64,000 nt of DNA from NCBI RefSeq assembly GCF_032268605.1, contig NZ_CP130318.1, forward strand, positions 4,563,501 to 4,627,500. The letters run 5' to 3'. A program made the position numbers and the translations under genes. Below, in pieces: positions 7,006-26,566 of this stretch (its first letter is position 1; each line of letters starts with the position of its first letter). The notes beneath the pieces are model-generated. The model worked only from the letters and a program-made list of their open reading frames with translations. It made no database searches and had not been told where the DNA came from. This stretch comes from Paenibacillus aurantius (GTDB taxonomy: Bacteria; Bacillota; Bacilli; Paenibacillales; NBRC-103111).

Positions 7006-7923
7006 CTACTTCACAAAGGTTAGCTTGATTCCCTGGGCGTGGTTGCCGAAGCCCTGTCCGAAAAGGTTGAGCCCTCTGCGGTTAGCCGCGTCGCTCTCCA
7101 CTTCAAACCGGATCAAGATCGGCTTATGATAATGAAGCCCAAGAGAGGACAGAACGGGCCCATCCGCCTCTTCCCCGTTAATCCGAACCGTATCCGGGCC
7201 GATGTCCCATTCATACAGATTTCCATACTGGGTGCCGTACAGCCACCAGGACGGGGTGAGCTTGCCCTTTTCTTCGCCGTAATCCCCCGAAGGCGTCACG
7301 GTGCCGATCCGGCAGCCATTCACAAAAAGGGTGATATCGGAGGGCCAATCCTCGTGAAAGCCCATCGCTTCCGAGCACAGCTCCGCGCTGACCCTCAGCC
7401 CTTTCAACTCTACTTCCGGAGGAACGGGATTAGGGAAACGGTATTCCACATAGCCCGACTCGCTGAACCAGAGCAGCTCCGCTTCGGAACGCTCCGGAAG
7501 GAAGAAGGAGCGGGGATCGTCGGGACAGCCGAGCAGGCCTTCTTTTCCCGCCAGACCGCACGGCGGAAGAACGGAGCAATCCGTATACAGCCCTACCGGC
7601 ATGGAGATCTCTTCCCGTTCATGCAGCGCTTCTCCCGGAGAACGAGGCAGCTCAAGCAGCAGGCTGTCGTAGGTGCGGGTGCACCGCTTCTCCCGGTTGG
7701 AGCCGGGAGTGGTTGTCACTAGCCCTGCCTGCTCCAGGATTTGAACATTGATGGAAACGGTAGGCTGGGCGGCCCCGAGCGCCGCCATCAGCTCGGTCAC
7801 GCTCATCGTCTGATCGCCAAGCGTCTCCAGAATGCGCAGCCGAAGATCACCTGACAGGGCTTTGGCCGTTTCCTGCAAACGGGCCGGCGGAATTCGTTTC
7901 ACTCGATCCGAGAGTTGACTCAT
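7006..7923 (-). CDS. ArsR-type winged-helix regulator with a long C-terminal domain
   Basis: A 305-residue transcription factor starting at ATG 7923 after AAGGAAGG. Residues 15-90 form an ArsR/SmtB-like winged helix (AKALSGDLRLRILETLGDQ, SVTELMAALGAAQPTVSINVQILEQAGLV). The remaining roughly 200 residues are aromatic and beta-rich (WFSESGYVEYRFPNPVPPEV, PSWWLYGTQYGNLYEWDIG) and much longer than classical metal-sensing ArsR proteins. It lacks an obvious metal-binding cysteine pair in the helix. It is divergent from a GH2 glycosidase, and tandem palindromes fill the shared intergenic region. The inferred job is sugar- or glycoside-responsive control of that gene and of itself; the ligand is unknown. 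Confidence 0.8.
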   Translation of the reverse strand: MSQLSDRVKRIPPARLQETAKALSGDLRLRILETLGDQTMSVTELMAALGAAQPTVSINVQILEQAGLVTTTPGSNREKRCTRTYDSLLLELPRSPGEALHEREEISMPVGLYTDCSVLPPCGLAGKEGLLGCPDDPRSFFLPERSEAELLWFSESGYVEYRFPNPVPPEVELKGLRVSAELCSEAMGFHEDWPSDITLFVNGCRIGTVTPSGDYGEEKGKLTPSWWLYGTQYGNLYEWDIGPDTVRINGEEADGPVLSSLGLHYHKPILIRFEVESDAANRRGLNLFGQGFGNHAQGIKLTFVK

Positions 7924-7978
7924 GGAGGCCTTCCTTTCTTCCATTTCAGATATTTTTAGTTTACAGGCCTTCTCACAC

Positions 7979-8014
7979 ATTGTAAAATTACAATATACAT
8001 TGCATAAACACAAT
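7979..8014. promoter_or_regulatory. tandem ATTG-N8-CAAT operators
   Basis: Two 16-bp sites with the form ATTG-N8-CAAT lie at 7979-7994 (arms ATTGTAA/TTACAAT) and 7999-8014, start-to-start distance 20 bp, about two helical turns. They occupy the divergent promoter region between the winged-helix regulator and the GH2 gene, so they are the natural candidate binding sites of that regulator. Confidence 0.65.
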
Positions 8015-8038
8015 TATAAAATGGGAGCGTGTTCCGAC

Positions 8039-9817
8039 ATGTCCAAGGCAAGTCTTCCCCGGCCCGAATATCCGCGGCCGCAGCTTCAACGTGAGAACGA
8101 CACCTGGCTTAATCTGAACGGAGAATGGGAATTCGAATTCGACGACGCCCGCCTCGGCGACCGGGAGCAGTGGTACCGGGAGCATGCTTTTTCCCGCCGC
8201 ATTCAAGTTCCGTACTGCTTTCAGAGCAAGCTGAGCGGAATAGAGGATACGGGCTTTCATGAGCAGGTCTGGTACCGCAGGCAGGTCACCCTGCCGGAAG
8301 GGATGGCCGGCAAGCGGCTCATTCTGCGTTTTGGCGCGGTGGATTACCAAGCCTGGGTATGGGTGAACGGCCAGATGGCCGCCTTTCATGAAGGAGGGCA
8401 TACGCCTTTTGCCGTAGAGATCACCGATCTGATCCGGGAAGGATCGAACGAGATCGTCGTGAAAGCCAGGGATTTCGACGAGGACGTTACCCTGCCGAGA
8501 GGTAAGCAGTACTGGAAGGAGAAATCCGAATCGATCTGGTATACGCGCACGACCGGCATCTGGCAGACCGTTTGGCTGGAAGCGGTTCCCGAGGTTTACC
8601 TGCAGAAGATTAAATACACTCCGGATATCGACACGAACGAAATCCGGATCCGGGCTATGGTCGACGGTGACTTGAACGGCCGCGAGGTTGTGCTTAAGAC
8701 GACCGTCACCTTCCAAGGGGAACCGGTGGCCGAGCACACCGCCCGCCTCCTGCGTCCCGAAACCTCCTTCCGGATCGGCCTGCATGATTTCAACGACCAC
8801 AGCATGGGCCGGTGGTGGTCGCCGCGCAATCCCCGCCTCTATGATGTCCGCTACCGGCTTCTCGTGGACGGAGTGGAAACAGACTTGGCGGAAAGCTATT
8901 TCGGCATGCGCAAAATCTCGATAGAGGACGGCAAAATCTGCCTGAACAATTATCCGTACAAGATGAAGCTCGTCCTGGATCAGGGTTATTTTCCGGAAGG
9001 CCTGCTTACGCCCCCTTCCGATGAAGCCATCCGGCAGGATGTCGAGCTCACCAAAGCGATGGGCTTCAACGGGGCCCGCAAGCACCAGAAGATCGAGGAC
9101 CCCCGCTACCTGTATTGGTGCGACAAGCTCGGCCTGCTCGTCTGGGGAGAAATGGCCAACTCGCAAGCCTATTCGGAGGAATATGTAAGCCGGATGACCC
9201 GGGAATGGCAGGAGGCCATCGAGCGGGATTACAATCATCCCTGCATCGTCGCCTGGGTTCCGCTGAACGAAAGCTGGGGTGTGAACCAGATTCTCGTCAA
9301 CCGGAAGCAGCAGCAGCATGCCTTAACCATGTACCATTTGACCAAGTCGCTCGACGATACGCGTCTTGTCATCTCGAACGACGGCTGGGAGCATGTGAAG
9401 TCGGACATCTGCACTATCCATGACTACGAAAGCCGCCGGGAGGTGCTCACCGAGCGTTACAGCACAGCCGAGAAGGCGGTCACCGGCAAGCCGGCAAGCC
9501 GATGGATTCATGTGCCCGGCTTCGCCTACGGAGGCGAGCCCATCCACATTTCCGAATATGGAGGCATCTCCTTCAAGAAAAGCGACTGGGAAGGCTGGGG
9601 CTATTCCGCCGCCAAGGACGATAAGGATTTCATCGAGCGGTACATGGCCGTCACCCAGCCCCTGCTGCAGTCCCCCATCGTGCAGGGCTTCTGCTACACC
9701 CAGCTGACGGACGTCGAGCAGGAAATCAACGGGCTGTTGACCTACGACCGCAAGCCGAAGGTGCCGCTTGAGATCATCCGGCAGATCAACGAGGGCAAGC
9801 AGCCGGAAGGGTATTAA
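8039..9817 (+). CDS. glycoside hydrolase family 2 enzyme
   Basis: A 592-residue GH2-type beta-glycosidase without a signal peptide, so probably cytoplasmic. The N-terminal jelly-roll sugar-binding domain (NLNGEWEFEFDD, VWYRRQVTLPEG, VWVNGQMAAFHEGGHTPF) is followed by an immunoglobulin-like domain and a TIM barrel. The likely acid/base is the Glu of VPLNESW and the likely nucleophile the Glu of HISEYGG. ATG at 8039 is chosen because the conserved sequence begins soon after it and GGGAG lies 11 bases upstream; ATG 8021 is an alternative. Substrate specificity (galactoside, glucuronide, mannoside) cannot be decided from sequence alone. It is divergent from, and probably controlled by, the winged-helix regulator. 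Confidence 0.9.
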   Translation: MSKASLPRPEYPRPQLQRENDTWLNLNGEWEFEFDDARLGDREQWYREHAFSRRIQVPYCFQSKLSGIEDTGFHEQVWYRRQVTLPEGMAGKRLILRFGAVDYQAWVWVNGQMAAFHEGGHTPFAVEITDLIREGSNEIVVKARDFDEDVTLPRGKQYWKEKSESIWYTRTTGIWQTVWLEAVPEVYLQKIKYTPDIDTNEIRIRAMVDGDLNGREVVLKTTVTFQGEPVAEHTARLLRPETSFRIGLHDFNDHSMGRWWSPRNPRLYDVRYRLLVDGVETDLAESYFGMRKISIEDGKICLNNYPYKMKLVLDQGYFPEGLLTPPSDEAIRQDVELTKAMGFNGARKHQKIEDPRYLYWCDKLGLLVWGEMANSQAYSEEYVSRMTREWQEAIERDYNHPCIVAWVPLNESWGVNQILVNRKQQQHALTMYHLTKSLDDTRLVISNDGWEHVKSDICTIHDYESRREVLTERYSTAEKAVTGKPASRWIHVPGFAYGGEPIHISEYGGISFKKSDWEGWGYSAAKDDKDFIERYMAVTQPLLQSPIVQGFCYTQLTDVEQEINGLLTYDRKPKVPLEIIRQINEGKQPEGY

Positions 9818-10362: not shown

Positions 10363-10842
10363 TTATTCCAAAACCACGCGGTCCTTCTCCCGGTTCCGGT
10401 ATGCGTTCAGAATGGGAAGGTGGGTCTCGGCCACCGGAAGCTCCCCGAGCCGGTCCTCGGGAACAAAGGCAAGCTCTCTCGATTCTTCGCTGATCACAAG
10501 CCGTTCAAACGGTTCGACCTCCACCTCGTAAGCGATGGTCAGAATCCGCTTCACCTTCCCGTCGGGAAAAGCGATGATTCTCGTGGGATCCGAGAAAGTG
10601 CCGAACAGCCGGATGCTCCGGACCGTCAAGCCCGTTTCTTCCTTTACCTCCCGGATCAGCGCATCGGTCAAGCTTTCGTCCCCATGGAGCGCTCCCCCGA
10701 TAAAGGCCCACCTTTCGCTGTCCGCCCGCTTCTCCAGCAGGAGGCTGCCGCTGCCGTCCCGGATGAGAGCCGTTACTCCTATGCTCGGAGGATTATTGGG
10801 CGCCGGGGCCGCCGGATTGCGGTAATAAAATTGAGCTTCCAC
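10363..10842 (-). CDS. NUDIX hydrolase
   Basis: A 159-residue NUDIX pyrophosphohydrolase. The Nudix box (G-x5-E-x7-REVKEETGL) is complete, beginning at GGALHGDE and ending in REVKEETGL, so Mg-dependent cleavage of a nucleoside-diphosphate-linked substrate is expected. GTG at 10842 follows GGGAGAG. The substrate cannot be read from the sequence. It is the first gene of a two-gene unit with the VOC protein. Confidence 0.9.
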   Translation of the reverse strand: MEAQFYYRNPAAPAPNNPPSIGVTALIRDGSGSLLLEKRADSERWAFIGGALHGDESLTDALIREVKEETGLTVRSIRLFGTFSDPTRIIAFPDGKVKRILTIAYEVEVEPFERLVISEESRELAFVPEDRLGELPVAETHLPILNAYRNREKDRVVLE

Positions 10843-10882
10843 TCTATCTCTCCCTTAATCATCGGTATGATTTATACTCCTC

Positions 10883-12274
10883 TTATTTTAGCGGAATCTC
10901 TAAAATACCTCTATCACTCTCGATCACATACTCGGAATCGGAGCCTCGAATATTCTTCTTGAGCCGTAAACCCCTTGCCGTCATTTCAAGAGCCAGCTCC
11001 AGCGGAAAACGATCCATCGCATCTTCTTTCTTTTCTTCTAAGCTCTTTAGTATGGCCTCCCTTCCCTGAGTGCATAGCTCCATATCCAGATCGCGGCCTC
11101 GAACGGAAAAATAGGATGCGTAGAACTCTAAAGGATAATACAACTTATAGAATGCACTTCGCACGGCCATGATGACATAGGAGACGGCAAAGGATTTGGG
11201 GAAAAGGTACTGGATTTTCTGGCAAGATTCCATGTACCAATCCGGAACCTTGGATTTCAACATGACTTCGCGGAACGAATCCGAAATCCCTTTCCCTTTA
11301 CGCACGTCGTTCGCAATCGCGTAAGCTTTGTCCTGCTCTATCCCGTACTCCATGAGGTCCAGCATCAGCTGATCTCTGCTTCCAATCGATTCCGTAAGCG
11401 AACTTCTTCCCGCCTGCATCCGTTCTTTGGCGTTACCTTCCCATGTTCCGTTTCCATGCGAAAGCCCGCTGATCTGAACCAATTCAGTAAAGGTCGAAGG
11501 CTGCATAATTCCAAGCATTTCCCGCACCCACTGAATACCCATTTCCGGTACACCATAGGTAGCAACACCGGACTTGATTTGACCCGAAGTTACGCCAAGC
11601 GCCCCGGTTGACCGAAATAAGCTCAATACTTCGGGATCGTTCATGGGGATATCCCGTGGATGAACGCCCGTAAGAGCATGCAGCCGTTTCATAATGGAAA
11701 GCTCTTCATGAGCAAAGAGATCGACCAAAGGCTGGCTGCTGTCCGATCCAAGATTATCAGTATAAAGCCTTAATTCTTTTTGTTCCTCTTCCTCAAATTC
11801 TTTGGGAACATAGATATCGATATTCGGTGGAGTGTTGCCATCGATTCCAAGAAACATTTCATACGGGATCCTGTGCCCGTCCCCCACCCATTCGCTCCCG
11901 CACTCCGCGCATTGCTTGTTCGGCAAATCGAAGCCGCTGCCTGTACCATTTGCAGCCCATTCGAAATGTCTGCATTTCCGGCAAAGATAATGAGGTGGCA
12001 GCGGATTGGAGTCGGTTATTCCGAGCAAATAGGCCACGAAGCTCGAGCCGACCGAACCTCGGGGGGCCGTCAAATATCCTGCAGACTTCGCCCGATCGGC
12101 AATCCTGGCGGCAGCCAAATAAGGCTCAGCGAACCCCTTTCTTAAGATGTGTCCGAGCTCCTCCTCTACTCGTGAAACGGCCAATTCCGGAGCGGTATCC
12201 CCGTAAAGAGTTCGAATGGCGGCGTTACAAAGCGAACGAATAGGGTGATTTTCGCTTTCCAATGGGTTTGTCAT
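10883..12274 (-). CDS. truncated PolC-like protein lacking most of the catalytic palm
   Basis: A 463-residue relative of the C-terminal half of PolC, the Gram-positive replicative DNA polymerase (about 1,440 residues). It keeps RGSVGSSFVAYLLGITDSN, NPLPPHY, the four-cysteine zinc site (CRKC...CAEC), LVQISGLSHGNGTWEGNA, VRKGKGIS and YPLEFYASYFSVR. OB, PHP and exonuclease regions are absent. The PolC motif PDIDLNF reads PNIDIYV, so one of two catalytic aspartates is Asn. Comparison with PolC as I recall it suggests about 100 palm residues are missing before VDLFAHEEL. The C-terminal clamp-binding tail is also missing. DNA synthesis is therefore unlikely. ATG 12274 is preferred over 12280 because GGAGG lies nine bases upstream. 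It has its own promoter-operator and lower GC than its neighbours. A decayed pseudogene is possible, but the frame is intact. Confidence 0.85.
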   Translation of the reverse strand: MTNPLESENHPIRSLCNAAIRTLYGDTAPELAVSRVEEELGHILRKGFAEPYLAAARIADRAKSAGYLTAPRGSVGSSFVAYLLGITDSNPLPPHYLCRKCRHFEWAANGTGSGFDLPNKQCAECGSEWVGDGHRIPYEMFLGIDGNTPPNIDIYVPKEFEEEEQKELRLYTDNLGSDSSQPLVDLFAHEELSIMKRLHALTGVHPRDIPMNDPEVLSLFRSTGALGVTSGQIKSGVATYGVPEMGIQWVREMLGIMQPSTFTELVQISGLSHGNGTWEGNAKERMQAGRSSLTESIGSRDQLMLDLMEYGIEQDKAYAIANDVRKGKGISDSFREVMLKSKVPDWYMESCQKIQYLFPKSFAVSYVIMAVRSAFYKLYYPLEFYASYFSVRGRDLDMELCTQGREAILKSLEEKKEDAMDRFPLELALEMTARGLRLKKNIRGSDSEYVIESDRGILEIPLK

Positions 12275-12317
12275 TTTCATCTACCTCCGGTTTTTTTATA
12301 TCCATAAACCAAATCGG

Positions 12318-12347
12318 CTTATAGTTGCGTTGACACTCAACTCAACA
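12318..12347 (-). promoter_or_regulatory. promoter-operator of the PolC-like gene
   Basis: On the minus strand a -35 TTGAGT (12340-12345), a 16-base spacer and a -10 TATAAG (12318-12323) precede the gene. The inverted repeat TCAACA...CGTTGA (12328-12347, eight-base centre) covers the -35 at exactly the same offset as the repeat in front of the XRE gene, with one mismatch. This implies control by the same repressor. Confidence 0.7.
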
Positions 12348-12363
12348 TGCAAGGTAAAAAAAA

Positions 12364-13011
12364 TTACAAGTCCAGCATCATCTGCTCGTACTTGGGCTTA
12401 TTTCCTGCCGAGCTGGGATCTCTTACTTCGCCATCTGGATCGATATGCAGAAGCTGAAGCTGGGTCAGGCGGACCGATAAAGCCGAGATGGATACCCGAA
12501 AACAATCCGCCAACTTATAAAGCTTGGAAAGATGAATGCGTCCCATTTTTTTGAGCTGACCGACAGCAAGATCCACCATCGGATGCGGGAGCAAAAGACA
12601 ACCCGCAAACAAATCCGCCTGCACCTCTTCCACCGGTTTCGTCCGACTTTTCTGTTCCAGATCCTGAAGGCGAAGGATGTAAGGAGATTCGCCGGTATGC
12701 AGCACCCAATGTCCGAGCTCATGAGCCAGTGTGAAATGGTACGTACCAAGCTTTCTGTCGAATAAATCGCGGTGGGTTTCATTCAACACGATTTGCCTTT
12801 CATTCGGGAAAAGCGCTGCCATAACGAGACCTTCCGCATCCAAGTGATCAATTCTCTCCCAGCAGATCTGCAACTCGAAATGAAATTCCACAAGCTCTTC
12901 TATGGGGACAGGCTGAATGATTTTCCCTCCGGGATTATAGCCATAATCGAGTAATATTTTTTCGGTGAGCTTGTCCATACGTTCACGCGTAATAAACCGG
13001 GTAGCTATCAT
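12364..13011 (-). CDS. ImmA/IrrE family metallopeptidase
   Basis: A 215-residue zinc peptidase of the ImmA/IrrE (COG2856) family. The HEXXH motif is HELGHWVLH near residue 100, and the third ligand is probably in the downstream EVQADLFAGCLLLP. ImmA of ICEBs1 and IrrE of Deinococcus cut partner XRE repressors (ImmR, DdrO) and so switch on their target genes. Here the start overlaps the stop of the XRE gene by four bases (ATGA), and the PolC-like gene follows after 89 bp. That arrangement strongly suggests the XRE protein is its substrate. The inducing signal is unknown; DNA damage is the precedent. Confidence 0.92.
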   Translation of the reverse strand: MIATRFITRERMDKLTEKILLDYGYNPGGKIIQPVPIEELVEFHFELQICWERIDHLDAEGLVMAALFPNERQIVLNETHRDLFDRKLGTYHFTLAHELGHWVLHTGESPYILRLQDLEQKSRTKPVEEVQADLFAGCLLLPHPMVDLAVGQLKKMGRIHLSKLYKLADCFRVSISALSVRLTQLQLLHIDPDGEVRDPSSAGNKPKYEQMMLDL

Positions 13012-13364
13012 AGCGGGTCGCCCTCGCCTTCTTCGCCAATAATTTCCTTAATCTTCTTCCACTGTGCAGGAGAAAGCTCGGATGCTTTTCTAAGAAAGAC
13101 CGGAATTTCTTTGTTTTCCGTAATCAATCTTTGAAAACTTTTGGGTACTTTATTCGCAGCCAAAATAAGCCCTTCCGGGTCCACTTGAAGTTCTTCCGCG
13201 ATTCTTATGATTTTATCTTCCGCAGGAGGATCCATCGTTCCACTTTCAATCTTGCTGATATAGGTAAAATCAATGCCCACCCGATCTGCCAGCTGGCGCT
13301 GCGTAACCTTACGCTGCTTTCGCAGATTGCGCAGAAGCTCGCCAAATTCGCTCAAAGATGCCAC
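13008..13364 (-). CDS. XRE-family repressor of the protease/PolC-like operon
   Basis: A 118-residue protein with an N-terminal Cro/CI helix-turn-helix (residues about 8-65: LRNLRKQRKVTQRQLA, GIDFTYISKIESGTMDPP) and a C-terminal tail that could hold a protease-sensitive site. The GTG at 13364 is close to GGAAGG. A TTG at 13355 gives the typical MSEFGELLRNLRKQ and better spacing, so the true start may be there. It is first in the operon, overlaps the ImmA/IrrE gene by four bases, and sits directly behind a consensus promoter overlaid by an inverted repeat, which suggests autorepression. Confidence 0.9.
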   Translation of the reverse strand: MASLSEFGELLRNLRKQRKVTQRQLADRVGIDFTYISKIESGTMDPPAEDKIIRIAEELQVDPEGLILAANKVPKSFQRLITENKEIPVFLRKASELSPAQWKKIKEIIGEEGEGDPL

Positions 13365-13382
13365 CGCCTTCCAGTAACTCTT

Positions 13383-13412
13383 ATTCTATATATGTTGAGT
13401 GATTTGTCAACA
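13383..13412 (-). promoter_or_regulatory. promoter-operator of the XRE-ImmA/IrrE operon
   Basis: On the minus strand, -35 TTGACA (13405-13410), 16 bases and -10 TAGAAT (13383-13388) make a good vegetative promoter. The perfect inverted repeat TGTTGA-N8-TCAACA (13393-13412) overlaps the -35. A near-identical repeat at the same offset precedes the PolC-like gene. Confidence 0.8.
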
Positions 13413-13524
13413 AAATTTATAAATAGTTCAGACCGTTATCTTGTATTTTCAAGAAGCCAAGATCACGGATTCAGGGGTATGATGAAGAGGAACTTAGAAG
13501 CCATTCGAAACGGAGGATTTGCCG

Positions 13525-18961: not shown

Positions 18962-21900
18962 TTACGGCTCATATACGTTGAATTCGTGGATACTCCACCA
19001 AGGCGAAGCCGTCGCCGTAAGCACCACCTTAATATACTGGGCGGTCTGGACCGGGAAGGTGATGGTCGTGATCGAGCTGGTGCCGGTGCCTGTCGCTACA
19101 GCCGTTCCCCACGTCGTGCCGTTCGAGGAAACGTACACTTCGTAGCCTCTCGGATAGTCGTTTGTGCTGTTGGCGTCCAGCGTAATCTTGTTGAATGTCT
19201 TTGCCGAGCCCATATTCAGTTGATAGTACAGTCCCGCTATTTGGGTACGGCTTGTTGTCCAGCGCGTCGACAGGACGCCGTCCAGTGCATTGGCGGTTCC
19301 GGTCGTATTCGACGCCGTCGCCGTCCAGCCGGTGCGGCTCAGGGCTGCGCCGCTGGTGGGCGTTGCGGACGCAGAGGCGGAGTCTGCACTTTCCTTGCTG
19401 CCCGCGAGCGCACTGACGACGTAATAGTACGGAGTTCCGTTCGCTAAGCCGGAGTCGGCGTAAGCCGCCGACGTGACGGTAGCGACCGTCGTATAAGGTC
19501 CTCCGTTAGTCGTACTGCGTTTCACGTTGTAGCTGGCCGCTCCGGTGACCCCCGTCCAGCTTAGGCTGACCGATGCATTGCCGGCGGCAGCCGCAAGGCC
19601 TGTCGGAGCCGGAAGCGGAGCCGTTACGGAAGCTTCAGCCGAATTCGGGCTGGAACCGTCATTGTTCGAAGCCGTGACGACATAATAGTAGGTCGTCCCG
19701 GCAGCAAGGGTATTATCCGTATACGTGGTGGTCGTCACGTTCGACGCCAAAACCGAGTACGGCCCGCCGCTTGTGGTCGCACGTTTCACTTGATAGCTCG
19801 TTGCGCCCGACGATGCGGTCCAGCTAAGCTGTGCCACTCCATTGCTCAGGCTGGCCGTTACGCCGGTCGGAGCTTGAGGCGCGCTGCTTAATTCGTCCGC
19901 TCCGATGTCGTAAGCTGTACCCGTAGGACGAAGCTGTCCATCCCTATCCGCCGGAACGTCGATCGGCAGCGCATAACCGGTATCGATCGCCGCTTGAGCG
20001 GTTGACGGATTAAGATGGTAGTCGCCTGCGGCAGCATTCACGAGCCAGCCTGTGGTGGCGTTCGTAATGTTGTTGCTGGAGGCGGCCGTTCCGCCGTCGC
20101 GAAGCTTAACCGCCTTATCCATCAGATTGTTGCGGATCTCGCCGCTGCTGCCCGCAAAACGGGATTCGATTCCGCCGACGCTGGCGCTTGGCGCAATGTC
20201 GAGCATCGTGTTGTTATAAACTTTGAATCCGTTCGCCTTGTTCATGTACACGGCCGTATCCTGCGTGCCCATGACCACGTTGTTGCGCATAATGCCGCCG
20301 CGGTGCTCATAGGCCGTATCTCCGTTGCGGAAATATTGAACCGCCGTGCCGCCGCCGCCGAACGACATGGCGATGGAGCTGTTCTTGAATACGTTGTTCT
20401 CGACCACCGTATCCATCGAGTTGCCTTTGGCGAAGAAGCCGTAGGCCGGGCTGCCATCCGCTTTTTTCGTATTCTCAATCGTGTTGCCGCGGATGATCCA
20501 GCCTTTGGAGGCGATCAGATCGATGCCTTCCACGCTTCCCCTCATACCTGCAGTGGTGTAACCGATCAACGAGTTCTCGATAATGCCGTAATCGGCATAA
20601 GGAAGCTCCACATCGCCGCCGGATGTCGACTTGAACCCGCCTTCGCCGTTATCCCAAGTTTTTACATGATCGGCATGGAAATAATCCGACCCGCTGTTGA
20701 CTTGAATCGAGTGGTAGTACGAATCGCGGATCGTCAGATTCCGGAAGGTAACGTAATCCGAGTCATTTACTTTGAAGTTGATATCGAGCGTTGTGCTGTT
20801 GATGCCCGGTCCGGCAATGACCGTATCGTTGTAATTCGAGGTCGCGCCCTGAATCGTGATGTTGTTTTTGCCGTTGATGGTAATCGTAGACGCCTGGCTG
20901 TAAGTGCCGGCCGCGAGCGTAATCGTCCGGCCGTTTGCCGGAGCCCCGTCGATGGCCTGCTGCAGCTGCGCCAGAGAGCTGACCGTGACACTGTCCGGAA
21001 CCGGCGTGAAAGTAGCGGCGTTCACCACGTTCGACAGGGCGGAATAGTTGCCCGCATCGTCATAGGTTTTGACGGCAAAATAGTAGATCTGCCCCGTCGC
21101 CAGCTGGTTCACCTGGAACTTCATCGCAAGTCCCGGATCGCGCTGGGCCAGTTCATCTTGCGCTTGTGCGGCGGAGGCCCAGTTCGCTTCCGTAATCGGA
21201 GAGGTCGAATAACGAACGTCGTAACCGGCCGCTTTGCCGGTAGTGCCGTCGTTGCCCGGCGCCGTCCAGGTCAGCTGCACACTGCGGAGGTTCGGGCTTA
21301 CGGCCTGCAGATTCGCAATGGCCGCCGGAGGCGTAGGATCCGAAGCCGGCGTCGTCACCGAGACTATGTTGGAAAGCGCGGATGCGTTAACCGCTTCGTC
21401 GAAAGAACGCAGGGCAAAATAATACGTTGTTCCCGGCGTCAATCCGCTTATGTCAACCGACTGTGTCGTATTGGCGGCTTGCGGCTGCGGTTCGTTCGTC
21501 AGCTGGACGGCGTCATTCCAATTATTTTCCGTAATCGGTGCCGTATGGTAACGAATATCGTAGGATTGTGCGGTCCCCGTTGTTCCGTCGTCACCCGGAG
21601 CGCTCCAGGACAAGCTGGTCGACTTCCAAGTCGTCAATCCGGCAGCCAGGTTGCTTACAGCCGCTGGAGCGGTGCTGTCCCCCGGATTCGCATATACCTC
21701 GATCTCGATCGGCGTATTCACGAGGTGAACGTCCTGGTTGACCCGGATATGGCCGTTAGCCCAGTAGCGAACATAACGGGCGCTGATCGGGGTCGAGAGC
21801 ACGATATCTTTACCGGATCCGTCCACGGGCTCCAGGTAAGGGGCATCCGTACCCGCACCTTGACCTGCCGTATTGTCGTCGTCGTTGTTAAACACCGTCG

Positions 21901-24900
21901 TTACGCCGCTGGAGAAAGTCGGGCTGTTCGACAGCTGCACGATGATGTCGCGGCCGGTCCGCGCGGTGCCCGAGCTTGCTCCCCAGTCGTTGCGGATGTT
22001 GATTTTGCTGATCGGATAAGCCTGCGTCAGATCGACTTGAACCCACTTCGGTCCGTCGGCGATGCTGATTAAGGCATAGGAGTCCGTCGCCCTATCGGTC
22101 AGGATGGAAAGCGGAACTCCGTTCGAAACCGTGCCGTTCGACGTCACCGCTTTGCCCGGAGCCACGTTGATGGACGTTTCCATCACGACCTGCAGCACGT
22201 TGGACAGCGCCGATTCGTTGTTGGCATTGTCACGGGTTTTCATGGCAAAATAGTACGTCGTCCCTGCCGTCAGGCCAAGCACCGTAAATTGCTGCTTGGT
22301 TCCGGCCGCTTGTGGTGCGGGTTCTCCTACGACAGGCGTGGCGGAGGCCCAGTTCGCATTGGTGATCGGCGACGTGGAATAACGAAGGTCGTACTCGCTT
22401 GCCGTCCGGTCGTTGCCGTCGTCGCCCGGTGCCGTCCAGTTCAGGTCAACCGTGCTGAGCGTCCGGGTTCCCGCCGTCAAATTCGTAATGGCGTCGGGAG
22501 CCAGCACGTCCGTTCCGTCCACGAGCAGAATAGGGCGGTTATACGCATTCTCGGAGGTATGGAACGTCACCGTTCCCCCAACGGCTTGCGGGTCGTGCAG
22601 CTTAAACGACACGGTTTTGTCACTCATCTGGCTGTTTACGAAATCCGTCACGTCAAAAGCATACCAGCCGGCCGCGCTGACCGGAATCGCACCTACCGTC
22701 ACGCTGCCCGTTTCGCTCGGGAAAGTGGTAGTGGTCATGGTGGATTCCGTCCAGGCATCATCCTGGAGACCGGTTACCGTTAGCGACCAGGATTTGTTCG
22801 GTTTGTTCGGCGCGTACAGCATGAGGACCGCACGCTCCGCCGACGAACCGGAGTAAGCCGAGAAGTTAGCCTTGATATAGCCGTAATAGATGCTGTTTCC
22901 GTTGTTTTGAACGGTCAGCCCTGTGGAAGAACCATAAAAAGAGCCGTTATTCACAACATTAACGTCATCCGCCGGTGTATACTCCCCGGCCGAAGAAGCC
23001 AGCATCGTAATCGAAGGAACGTTCGACAGCGCCGACACGTTGCCTTGATCGTCGATCGTCTTCATGGCCGCATACACCGTGGCACCGGCCGTCGGGCCGT
23101 ATACCTTAATCGATTGCTGCGTACCGGCCGCTTGCGGAAGGACCGACGTCTCGATCTTCTGCGCACTGGCCCAGTTCGCTTCGGTCATCGCAGCGTTGGA
23201 ATAACGAATGTCGTAAGCGTAAGCCGTCCCCGTGCTGCCGTCATCGCCCGGGGCATTCCAGGTAAGCTGTAAGGAGCGGGAGGTCACGCTGCTTGCCGCC
23301 AAATTGGATACGGCCGCAGGCGCAATCGTTTCGTTCGGGACAAACTCGTCGGCTCCGACATCCGGCGCACCGCCGTAAGTCCTCGCCTCGCCGTCCCGGT
23401 CGGTCGGCACTTCCGGAAGGGTAATGCCCGCGTCACGGGCTGCAGCGCCGTAGAACGGATGCAAGTGGTAATCGCCGTTTGCCGGATCCACCAGCCAAGT
23501 CGGGGCGGCATTCGTAATGTTGTTGCTTTGGGTAGCGGTTCCGCCATCACGCAGCTTCACACTCCCGCTTAGCAGGTTGTTGCGGACCTCTCCGCTTGTC
23601 TGCGAATAACGCGGTTCGATCGCGCCTACGCCGGAGCCGATATTCAGAATCGTGTTGTTGTAGATTTTGTAGCCGTTTGCTTTGTTCAAATAAATGCCGG
23701 CATCCTGCATGCCGTAGATGACATTGTTGCGCATGATGCCGCCGCGGTGTTCGTAGGTTTGGTCCTGGTTGCGGAAGAAGGCAGCGCCCGAACCGCCGCC
23801 GCCGAACGACAAGGCGATAAAGCTGTTTTTAATAACGTTGTTCTCCATAATCGTGTCGATCGAGTTTGCCTTGGCAAAAATCCCATAAGCGGTGCCGCCG
23901 TCGGCCCTCTTGGCGTTCTCCACGGTGTTGCCGCGGATGACCCAGCCACGGGAGGCAATGAGGTCGATCCCTTCCACGACGCCCCGTTTACCGCTTACGG
24001 TATAGCCGATCAGGGAATTCTCAATGAGTCCGAAGTCGTTGTAACCGTTGCCGGAGTTCAGGTTGAAAGTCGTCTTGAAGCCGCCTTCCCCGTTATCCCA
24101 CGTTTTCACATGGTCGGCGTGGAAATAGTTGGAGCCCTCATTGACCTGGATGGCGTGGTAGTACGAGTCCTGAATCGTCATATTCTTGATCGTGACGTAG
24201 TCGGAATTGTTAACCTTGAAGTTGATGTCCATCGAGCTGACGTCGATGCCCTGCCCTTTGACCACCGTGTCATTAAAGTTAGCCGTCGCGCCCTGAATCG
24301 TGATGTTGTTCTTGCCGGTGATGTTGATCGGGGTCGATTGGGTGTAAGTTCCGGCCGCCAAGGTGATGACACGTCCGTTGGCAGGTGCGCTGTCAATGGC
24401 CGTCTGGAGGGCGCCGATCGAATGGACCGTAACGGAGTCCGGCGTCGGCGCAGCGATGGTTGCGCTCACCACGTTGGACAAATCCGACAAGTTGCCTACT
24501 TCGTCTAAAGTGCGGACGGCAAAGTAGTAGGTCGTGCCCGGCGATAATTCTTTGACCTTGAAATTGGCTGTTGATCCGACCGGAGGCTGAGGAAGCTCGT
24601 CGACCGCCTGCGCAGCCAAAGCCCAGTTTGCCGCTGTAATTGGGGAGGTCGAGTAACGGACGTCATAAAATGCGGCATTGCCGGTATTGCCGTCGTTGCC
24701 CGGTGCCGTCCAGGTCAGCTTCGCCGACTTGAACATCGCCTGCGTAACCTGCAGATCGGCTATTGCCGCAGGCGCCTGGGTATCGGACATCGGCGTCGTG
24801 ACCGTCAGGACGTTCGACAGCGGCGATTCATTCACGATATCCTTCGTCTTCATCGCCATGTAATAAGTCGTATTCGGCGTAAGCCCTTCGAGCGTAAACG

Positions 24901-26566
24901 TCTGGGTTGTTCCCGCCAACTGAGGAGCCGGCTCGCCTACGGCGCTTGTCGCGTTCGCCCAGTTCGCAGAAGTGATCGGCGAGGTCGAGTAGCGGATATC
25001 ATAGGAAGTGGCTGTGCCGGTTGTCCCGTTGTCCCCAGGGGCCGTCCAGCTCAGCTGAACCGCTTTCCAACTCGTGTAGACGCTGGAAAGATTCGTGACC
25101 GCCGCCGGCGGCGAGTAGTCTTGCGGATCCGCATAGACCTCCACTTCGACGGGCGTGTTCACGGTATTGGTTTGACCGTTAACCCTAACATGACCGTTGG
25201 CCCAGTATCGGACATAACGGGCATTCACGGTGTCGGTCAGGTTGATATCCTTCCCGCTGCCGTCTGCCAGCTCCATATACTCCGCATCGGTTCCAGCCCC
25301 GAGTCCTGAGCTGTTGTCATTGTCGTTGTTGAACACGGTCGTTACGCCGCTTGTGAACGTGGAGTCGTTCGATACTTGCACGACGATATCCTTGGCATAC
25401 CGGTATGCGGAGCTATCCGAGCCCCAATCGTTGCGGAGATTGATCCGGGAGATGTCATAAGCCTGGCCCAGATCGATCTGGGCCCACTTCGGGCCGTCCG
25501 CTACGCTGTAGAGGGCATACCTATCGCGCGTTACGACGCCGTCCGTCAGCTCGGAGATCGGCCGGTTGGTAACACTGCCCGCATTCGTCGTGACCGATTT
25601 TCCGAGCGCCACATTCGCCACCGGAAAAATGGAAGCGGTTGCAACATTCGAGAGATTGGAGACATCCCCGTTCGATCCGACCGTTTTCATGGCAAAGTAT
25701 ACCGTTTTCCCGGACGGCAATCCCTTCACCGTAAACGATTGCGAACCCGAAGAAGCGGGGAGCGGCTCGCCTGTGATCCGTTTCACGACCGCTCCGTTAT
25801 CCCAGTTGGCACTGGTGATCGGCGTGGTCGAATACCGGATGTCGTAGCCGGCTATCGAGCTGCCCGGGCTGTTCCAGGTAAGGACAGCGCTGTTTACGGT
25901 AGGACTGCCGGCCGATAGGCTGACCGAGCTTGGCAGTGAGGCATTGACCGTCGGAATTTCGGAGTAGACTTCCAGCTCGACCGGGGTGTTCACCGTCTGA
26001 ATCGAGCCGTCGGAAGTACGGGTGTGGCCATTCGCCCAAGAGCGGACATAACGGGCGCCAACCGGTGTGCTAAGGGTGATCGTTCGGCCGCTGCCGTCGA
26101 CCGGTTCCAGGTAAGTCGGATCAGAACCCGCTCCCTGTCCCGCCGTATTGTCGGAATCATTGTTGAATACAGTCGTTACGCCAGTGGAGAAGGCAGGATC
26201 GTTGGAGAGCTGAACAATGATATCTCGACCGGTTCTCGTCGCCTGCGGGTTATAATCATTCAGCACATTAATGCGGGTAATGGCATGCGATTCCCCTAAG
26301 TCGTACTGTACCCACTTAGGTCCTGTGGAGGCATTGATCAGGGCGTAGCTGCTCGACTGGCGGTCGCCGTCGATCAACCGGTCAAGCGATACGGCGTTGT
26401 TCACGATGCCGTTGGTGGTTACCTTCGCGTGGCCCAAGGCTACGTTGGCCTCAGCGGCCGCGAAAGCCACTGGAGCAGCCGTAAACAGAAGCTGCGTGGA
26501 AAGTACGGTGGTCATGAGCATCGTTATTCCCGACTTTTTTACAAGAGGCAAAACCAATTTTGACAC
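18962..26566 (-). CDS. giant secreted modular protein: discoidin, FN3, beta-helix, DNRLRE
   Basis: A 2,534-residue exported protein with a signal peptide ending near AAPVAFAAA. Approximate order: discoidin-like (40-200), FN3, discoidin-like (325-482), two FN3, right-handed beta-helix (709-1075), FN3, DNRLRE-like (1200-1340), FN3, discoidin-like (1470-1625), two FN3, second beta-helix (1860-2225), two FN3, and a C-terminal F5/8 discoidin (2405-2534). The block discoidin-FN3-FN3-beta-helix is present twice with close sequence similarity (ADHVKTWDNGEGGFK and GIMRNNV recur), so it arose by internal duplication. There is no SLH or sortase motif, so it is probably released or held by carbohydrate binding. 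The beta-helices resemble polysaccharide lyases or epimerases, but I saw no assured catalytic site. The start is GTG after GGAGAGG. Confidence 0.88.
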   Translation of the reverse strand: MSKLVLPLVKKSGITMLMTTVLSTQLLFTAAPVAFAAAEANVALGHAKVTTNGIVNNAVSLDRLIDGDRQSSSYALINASTGPKWVQYDLGESHAITRINVLNDYNPQATRTGRDIIVQLSNDPAFSTGVTTVFNNDSDNTAGQGAGSDPTYLEPVDGSGRTITLSTPVGARYVRSWANGHTRTSDGSIQTVNTPVELEVYSEIPTVNASLPSSVSLSAGSPTVNSAVLTWNSPGSSIAGYDIRYSTTPITSANWDNGAVVKRITGEPLPASSGSQSFTVKGLPSGKTVYFAMKTVGSNGDVSNLSNVATASIFPVANVALGKSVTTNAGSVTNRPISELTDGVVTRDRYALYSVADGPKWAQIDLGQAYDISRINLRNDWGSDSSAYRYAKDIVVQVSNDSTFTSGVTTVFNNDNDNSSGLGAGTDAEYMELADGSGKDINLTDTVNARYVRYWANGHVRVNGQTNTVNTPVEVEVYADPQDYSPPAAVTNLSSVYTSWKAVQLSWTAPGDNGTTGTATSYDIRYSTSPITSANWANATSAVGEPAPQLAGTTQTFTLEGLTPNTTYYMAMKTKDIVNESPLSNVLTVTTPMSDTQAPAAIADLQVTQAMFKSAKLTWTAPGNDGNTGNAAFYDVRYSTSPITAANWALAAQAVDELPQPPVGSTANFKVKELSPGTTYYFAVRTLDEVGNLSDLSNVVSATIAAPTPDSVTVHSIGALQTAIDSAPANGRVITLAAGTYTQSTPINITGKNNITIQGATANFNDTVVKGQGIDVSSMDINFKVNNSDYVTIKNMTIQDSYYHAIQVNEGSNYFHADHVKTWDNGEGGFKTTFNLNSGNGYNDFGLIENSLIGYTVSGKRGVVEGIDLIASRGWVIRGNTVENAKRADGGTAYGIFAKANSIDTIMENNVIKNSFIALSFGGGGSGAAFFRNQDQTYEHRGGIMRNNVIYGMQDAGIYLNKANGYKIYNNTILNIGSGVGAIEPRYSQTSGEVRNNLLSGSVKLRDGGTATQSNNITNAAPTWLVDPANGDYHLHPFYGAAARDAGITLPEVPTDRDGEARTYGGAPDVGADEFVPNETIAPAAVSNLAASSVTSRSLQLTWNAPGDDGSTGTAYAYDIRYSNAAMTEANWASAQKIETSVLPQAAGTQQSIKVYGPTAGATVYAAMKTIDDQGNVSALSNVPSITMLASSAGEYTPADDVNVVNNGSFYGSSTGLTVQNNGNSIYYGYIKANFSAYSGSSAERAVLMLYAPNKPNKSWSLTVTGLQDDAWTESTMTTTTFPSETGSVTVGAIPVSAAGWYAFDVTDFVNSQMSDKTVSFKLHDPQAVGGTVTFHTSENAYNRPILLVDGTDVLAPDAITNLTAGTRTLSTVDLNWTAPGDDGNDRTASEYDLRYSTSPITNANWASATPVVGEPAPQAAGTKQQFTVLGLTAGTTYYFAMKTRDNANNESALSNVLQVVMETSINVAPGKAVTSNGTVSNGVPLSILTDRATDSYALISIADGPKWVQVDLTQAYPISKINIRNDWGASSGTARTGRDIIVQLSNSPTFSSGVTTVFNNDDDNTAGQGAGTDAPYLEPVDGSGKDIVLSTPISARYVRYWANGHIRVNQDVHLVNTPIEIEVYANPGDSTAPAAVSNLAAGLTTWKSTSLSWSAPGDDGTTGTAQSYDIRYHTAPITENNWNDAVQLTNEPQPQAANTTQSVDISGLTPGTTYYFALRSFDEAVNASALSNIVSVTTPASDPTPPAAIANLQAVSPNLRSVQLTWTAPGNDGTTGKAAGYDVRYSTSPITEANWASAAQAQDELAQRDPGLAMKFQVNQLATGQIYYFAVKTYDDAGNYSALSNVVNAATFTPVPDSVTVSSLAQLQQAIDGAPANGRTITLAAGTYSQASTITINGKNNITIQGATSNYNDTVIAGPGINSTTLDINFKVNDSDYVTFRNLTIRDSYYHSIQVNSGSDYFHADHVKTWDNGEGGFKSTSGGDVELPYADYGIIENSLIGYTTAGMRGSVEGIDLIASKGWIIRGNTIENTKKADGSPAYGFFAKGNSMDTVVENNVFKNSSIAMSFGGGGTAVQYFRNGDTAYEHRGGIMRNNVVMGTQDTAVYMNKANGFKVYNNTMLDIAPSASVGGIESRFAGSSGEIRNNLMDKAVKLRDGGTAASSNNITNATTGWLVNAAAGDYHLNPSTAQAAIDTGYALPIDVPADRDGQLRPTGTAYDIGADELSSAPQAPTGVTASLSNGVAQLSWTASSGATSYQVKRATTSGGPYSVLASNVTTTTYTDNTLAAGTTYYYVVTASNNDGSSPNSAEASVTAPLPAPTGLAAAAGNASVSLSWTGVTGAASYNVKRSTTNGGPYTTVATVTSAAYADSGLANGTPYYYVVSALAGSKESADSASASATPTSGAALSRTGWTATASNTTGTANALDGVLSTRWTTSRTQIAGLYYQLNMGSAKTFNKITLDANSTNDYPRGYEVYVSSNGTTWGTAVATGTGTSSITTITFPVQTAQYIKVVLTATASPWWSIHEFNVYEP

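Follow-up and report, generated by a model that had tools for sequence, protein, structure and literature searches.

Repressor–peptidase switches of the kind examined here are known from a number of bacterial systems. In CapH/CapP, a small XRE repressor and an M78/IrrE-type peptidase are encoded by a two-gene operon upstream of the target, and immune operons are controlled by regulators of this type (PMC13373217). DdrO/IrrE (PprI) of Deinococcus also combines an XRE repressor with an M78 protease, but here the targets are dispersed, share a common palindromic promoter motif and have a replication and repair theme. In both CapP and Deinococcus PprI, ssDNA switches on cleavage of the XRE partner (PMC13373217, PMC10904395). 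The ImmR/ImmA proteins of ICEBs1 and TnSmu1 form a third XRE–ImmA pair with predicted cleavage-based derepression, and for TnSmu1 a response to DNA damage by the same route has been proposed (PMC10233336). A different point of comparison is offered by DnaE2–ImuA′–ImuB, in which DnaE2, a damage-inducible accessory C-family polymerase (PMC3919608), has a catalytically dead polymerase homologue as a partner.

The locus described here, which lies in a 64,000-nucleotide stretch of the Paenibacillus aurantius chromosome (hereafter the window), has features of each of these systems. As in CapH/CapP, an adjacent gene pair matches the profiles of both regulators, and predicted operators lie at the promoters of both the regulator and its neighbouring target. 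The target, however, is not a known immune operon (CBASS, Bub or others) and PADLOC has no family for the PolC-like protein that it encodes. The locus also differs from CapH/CapP in that its targets encode either an accessory PolC or a DUF3892 protein, that targets are also found in trans and that a conserved, apparently double operator precedes the target. The resemblance to DdrO/IrrE lies in dispersed operator-bearing targets, in this case distant accessory polC genes in three genomes (G038, G048 and G028; G and L numbers are our handles for genomes and for contigs or loci), but the regulon is very small, comprising the switch's own operon and accessory polC, the repressor and protease genes are adjacent and the targets are PolC paralogues rather than a repair regulon. 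Unlike with the ICEBs1 and TnSmu1 pairs, the cargo does not appear to be a mobile element, and whereas DnaE2–ImuA′–ImuB is under LexA control, the present system places a PolC-derived paralogue, dead in the window, under XRE–ImmA.

The cassette and its two predicted operators

The features of the cassette, in window coordinates, are as follows.

10857–13475: whole cassette, about 2.6 kb, with a GC content of 47.6% against 58.3% for the window
10883–12280, minus strand: PolC-like accessory gene, 465 aa, retaining only parts of the palm, zinc-module and finger regions, with PNID in place of the catalytic PDID
12318–12345, minus strand: predicted promoter P2, −35 TTGAGT (12340–12345), 16-base spacer, −10 TATAAG (12318–12323)
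12325–12347, minus strand: operator 2, TGTTGAGTTGA-N3-TCAACGCAA, containing the originally described repeat TGTTGAGTTGAGTGTCAACG at 12328–12347
12356–12362, minus strand: T-tract just upstream of operator 2, a possible UP-like element, also seen before two distant accessory polC genes
12364–13011, minus strand: immA, 215 aa, M78/ImmA/IrrE/CapP-like zinc metallopeptidase with a HELGH motif (Pfam PF06114; PADLOC capP, E=5.4e-20)
13008–13364, minus strand: xre, 118 aa from GTG, XRE/CapH-like repressor (Pfam HTH_19/HTH_3; PADLOC capH, E=7.4e-13)
13383–13410, minus strand: predicted promoter P1, −35 TTGACA (13405–13410), 16-base spacer, −10 TAGAAT (13383–13388), 11 of 12 matches
13393–13412, minus strand: operator 1, TGTTGACAAATCACTCAACA, that is TGTTGACA-N6-TCAACA, overlapping the xre promoter, with a homologous site in 12 of 13 XRE–ImmA loci

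Homologues of the repressor begin MSEFG, so the true start of xre is probably the TTG at 13355. PDB matches were to 7t5u and to CapP (7t5t); the zinc-finger proteins at the top of the ImmA search were dismissed as chance matches of the HTGE type. The match of ImmA to CapP and IrrE is remote and the signal to which it responds could differ from ssDNA.

The original prediction was of two superimposable promoter-operators 1 kb apart, alike in arm length, eight-base centre and register to the −35, and most of this geometry was borne out. The repeat at 13393–13412 is TGTTGA-N8-TCAACA with perfect 6-bp arms and that at 12328–12347 is CGTTGA-N8-TCAACA with one mismatch. In both, reading the minus strand in the direction of the genes, the −35 hexamer occupies operator positions 3–8, and in both promoters 16 bases separate it from the −10 (TTGACA-16-TAGAAT, 13410..13383; TTGAGT-16-TATAAG, 12345..12318). 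The eight-base centres are alike in length and differ in sequence (CAAATCAC versus GTTGAGTG). That such a pair is unlikely by chance was confirmed by simulation: none of 1500 sequences of 64 kb with the dinucleotide statistics of the window contained a perfect site and a site with at most one mismatch within 1.1 kb. When the 6.3-Mb genome was searched for the repeat, the perfect site proved unique and 11 sites had at most one mismatch; no comparable in-register −35/−10 pair was found at the eight others of these that were examined.

Conservation of the operators across the order

Of 392 genomes of the order, 13 encode orthologues of the XRE–ImmA pair. The XRE segment GIDFTYISKIESG is identical, and the HELGH motif of ImmA conserved, in all 13. 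A site before xre and another directly after immA are found in 12 of the 13 genomes, G048 having lost both operators from its xre–immA locus. In four of the genomes (G028, G038, G066 and G171) the second site has two mismatches to the N8 rule with the core kept.

Comparison of 13 first-type and 17 second-type sites revealed that the two operator types differ. The first-type consensus is TGTTGAC-N7-TCAACA, with the −35 embedded, whilst the bases conserved in the second type reach past the repeat as first described, giving TGTTGAGTTGA-N3-TCAAC[A/G]CAA (12325–12347 in the window). Positions 7–11 of the second type are conserved in 17 of 17 sites and positions 21–23 in 17, 16 and 15 of 17, respectively; as these positions lie outside the initial search pattern, their conservation is independent evidence. 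The second operator is most readily interpreted as a pair of N8 sites that overlap and mirror each other around the N3 centre; the target would then have a double operator.

The core motif TTGAGTTGANNNTCAAC is present in 11 of 13 XRE+ genomes versus 18 of 379 XRE− genomes (Fisher 3e-12), although p-values here overstate independence because the 13 genomes are related. In XRE+ genomes, all sites with this motif are located at xre–immA or at accessory polC, and thus, judged by site location rather than by RDRM sequence, there is no DNA-repair regulon of the DdrO/IrrE kind.

Accessory polC genes as probable targets in cis and in trans

Within the family, an accessory PolC is encoded by seven of 10 XRE+ genomes versus two of 94 XRE− genomes. 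The gene is found directly behind immA in the window, G037, G043 and G066, and on a different contig from xre–immA in G038 (L044), G028 (L047) and G048 (L045 and L046). In each of the distant cases the operator is located just upstream of the start. Altogether, the operator is present in the promoter of eight out of eight accessory polC genes of XRE+ genomes, four of which are away from xre–immA, whereas no good site precedes any of the 11 housekeeping polC genes examined or either accessory polC gene of the XRE− genomes G051 and G084 (Fisher p=5e-6, uncorrected for shared ancestry).

Independently of the p-values, evidence comes from the distant genes, from G048, where the operators are gone from xre–immA yet kept at both distant accessory polC genes, and from the paired absences of operator and repressor. 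In G051, for example, the accessory polC gene occupies the locus that it has in G037, yet xre–immA and the operator are both absent. The presence of the operator at spare PolC genes in other parts of the chromosome in related bacteria shows that the link between switch and PolC is real, whilst the persistence of an accessory PolC in G051 and G084 without the switch indicates that the effector is not strictly dependent on it.

The proposal that the XRE repressor has the PolC-like gene as a dedicated target, the gene being no mere passenger, is therefore strongly supported by comparative genomics, at the level of promoter sequence. We consider it highly probable that the operators of one XRE switch control this gene, a judgement that concerns regulation and excludes the effector's role. 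The word dedicated does not extend to the XRE–ImmA pair, since a DUF3892 gene takes the place of polC in other genomes (see below): PolC is one cargo class of the switch, dedicated within its range.

Two accessory polC promoters contain a second, upstream operator (L046:5176-5195 and L047:6652-6671); that in G048 (L046) faces the opposite way and may belong to a divergent promoter. In addition, the GH2 gene near the cassette, which has an ArsR-like neighbour (window 7006–9817), has a 63% identical relative at L044:9106-10869, beside the accessory polC that lies apart from the switch in G038. This may be a sign of an old polC locus, with xre–immA as the part that moved.

A graded series of PolC paralogues

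The housekeeping polC of the window genome is located elsewhere and is full length. The PolC-like protein of the window aligns only to residues 818–988 and 1094–1382 of the housekeeping enzyme and lacks the PHP, exonuclease, thumb-region and C-terminal parts. Without the full domain set, it scores 494.8 bits against the NCBIfam PolC equivalog, for which the cut-off is 873. Its PNID replaces the PDID motif that contains the catalytic aspartates D972 and D974 of E. faecium PolC, and replacement of these two residues together abolishes polymerase activity in that enzyme (PMC12592400). With the exonuclease, PHP and thumb regions and one catalytic aspartate missing, the window protein is almost certainly not a polymerase. 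An AlphaFold model, built from a two-sequence alignment, was uninformative (mean pLDDT 37).

Accessory PolC proteins in other genomes are less reduced to varying degrees. Those of G043, G048 and G084 are full length with PDID intact; those of G038, G048a and G028 are ~800 aa long, having kept PDID and lost the N-terminal and exonuclease domains; and the window, G037, G066 and G051 encode PN[I/M]D forms of 465–803 aa. All seven short forms keep 90 positions that are invariant in housekeeping PolC, among them both the four zinc-module cysteines and the second and third catalytic aspartates. Divergence between accessory polC genes is highest at third codon positions (for instance, 0.226/0.189/0.455 for G038 versus G048a), suggesting that the proteins are still constrained, if fast-evolving, and not pseudogene-like. 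Accessory and housekeeping PolC are split in a tree, with weak support (62% of bootstraps).

Other cargo and genomic neighbourhood

In five genomes (G027, G129, G150, G171 and G306) the gene behind the same second operator encodes a DUF3892 protein, as assigned by Pfam for the G150 and G129 copies and by evident sequence similarity for the other three. This implies that the switch is generic, a module with exchangeable cargo. The DUF3892 versions of the locus are L039, L041, L074, L076 and L077. Serine recombinases were seen only beside such versions, in genomes of family f10, whilst the G150 version adjoins a type III restriction system.

A second DnaE of about 1189 aa is encoded in G159 (L075:2372-5941), G084, G038 (L108), G028 and G043, the copies being 87–91% identical to that of G159 and about 69% identical to the main DnaE. 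The G159 protein is at most a candidate second regulated polymerase: it is encoded two genes behind operator 2, with an M16 peptidase gene in between, and the same DnaE in G038 lacks a good operator alongside.

The cassette is variably present within the species. Genome G147 lacks 10857–13475 and has about 87 unrelated bases in its place, with flanks that are 94–97% identical; the Nudix gene beside the missing cassette (window 10363–10842) is truncated in G147 by a ~284-bp deletion. No conjugation or integration genes were seen beside the cassette in the window, and no relatives were found in viral contigs. A phage or plasmid origin was rejected on the grounds of this absence and because the PolC hits in phage and plasmid collections are about 30–44% identical, several being annotated as ordinary PolC. 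Elsewhere in the window, a 2534-aa ORF (18962–26566) contains repeated stretches that resemble fibronectin and discoidin, and its product is probably a large secreted protein.

How the switch might work and what its effector might do

As XRE and ImmA match CapH and CapP, ssDNA-triggered cleavage of the repressor is the likely mode of action; XRE repression, cleavage by ImmA and the damage signal are all extrapolated from these homologues. One XRE repressor would bind both sites, autoregulating xre–immA through operator 1 and repressing the accessory PolC-like gene through the double site of operator 2. ssDNA or another stress signal would activate ImmA, as with CapP and PprI/IrrE, and activated ImmA would cleave XRE, allowing both P1 and P2 to fire, so that the PolC-derived protein would appear only when replication is stressed or phages attack. 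In this reading, the effector itself originated as a spare full-length PolC that was reduced stepwise, with loss of the exonuclease, then of N-terminal, thumb and C-terminal parts, and then of a catalytic aspartate. Given how much of the catalytic apparatus has gone from the window copy, a role in binding is favoured over one in synthesis, and we speculate that this protein probably acts as a competitor or decoy at the fork, or as bait for a PolC-targeting factor; the longer accessory copies are possible error-prone polymerases.

What the effector does can be approached from several directions. A scheme in which the dead PolC serves an antiphage or stress module, as a decoy or dominant-negative inhibitor of replication placed under CapH/CapP-type control because its expression is harmful, is one role that fits within the explanation given above, and it strikes us as a real, if still doubtful, possibility. 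It accords with the control of immune operons by such regulators, with the rapid evolution of accessory PolCs, the low GC content and patchy occurrence of the cassette and the type III R-M system that adjoins the regulator in G150, and is weakened by the failure of the PolC-like protein to match anything in PADLOC and by the position of the window locus outside any recognised defence island. We think it unlikely, but deserving of attention, that the effector is instead a mutagenic or translesion polymerase induced by damage, as DnaE2 is, with the window copy as a late degenerate form. DnaE2 sets the precedent for a damage-inducible C-family paralogue, the catalytic aspartates are kept in full-length (G043, G048) and exonuclease-free (G038, G048a, G028) copies, and the latter would lack proofreading; yet the copies of the window, G037, G066 and G051 have lost one catalytic aspartate and parts of the palm and thumb whilst the short forms remain under constraint, and most short forms have no C-terminal clamp-binding tail.

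Two further explanations fare worse. An accessory PolC might act as a sponge or resistant spare against a PolC-binding inhibitor, with the switch sensing the fork stalling that results. The residues of the inhibitor pocket (F1276, Y1284 and H1185 of E. faecium; PMC12592400) are indeed kept in all seven short forms, but the pocket phenylalanine F1276 shows no resistance-type change, for which reason a resistant polymerase was rejected, H1280 has become F in the window copy and Q in G066, and such inhibitors pair with bases of the template, DNA that a protein without a thumb may be unable to grip. Nor was a biosynthetic cluster noticed in passing beside the locus; we regard this idea as improbable. 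Least credible of all is that operator 2 is a relic of a duplicated regulator promoter and polC a passenger behind it. The G038 locus, in which a mismatched operator 2 follows immA with no PolC behind, could be taken in this sense, but the operator is retained at the promoters of the four accessory polC genes that lie on contigs other than that of xre–immA, the extended motif of operator 2 is distinct and highly conserved, and operator and repressor are jointly absent in G051 and G084. Returning to the switch-controlled effector, we tentatively propose a new class of inducible effectors, PolC paralogues that are catalytically dead or free of proofreading. A DNA-damage switch of the CapH/CapP type would silence them both in cis and in trans, and once made they would disrupt the replisome or take its place when phages attack or forks collapse, a generalisation that may prove correct but that we hold to be somewhat short of probable.

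Implications

A literature search found no report of replicative polymerase paralogues under the control of a repressor–protease switch, and a text search of a PolC census uncovered a single extra PolC copy, from Thermotogae, and no system resembling the present one. If the switch acts as its relatives do, fork stress would lead cells to produce a PolC-derived protein, one that in several of the genomes is almost certainly non-polymerising. A dead-polymerase product points to interference with the replisome or to bait, a question that is directly testable, and the finding of DUF3892 in the place of PolC downstream of this operator makes DUF3892 a candidate effector.
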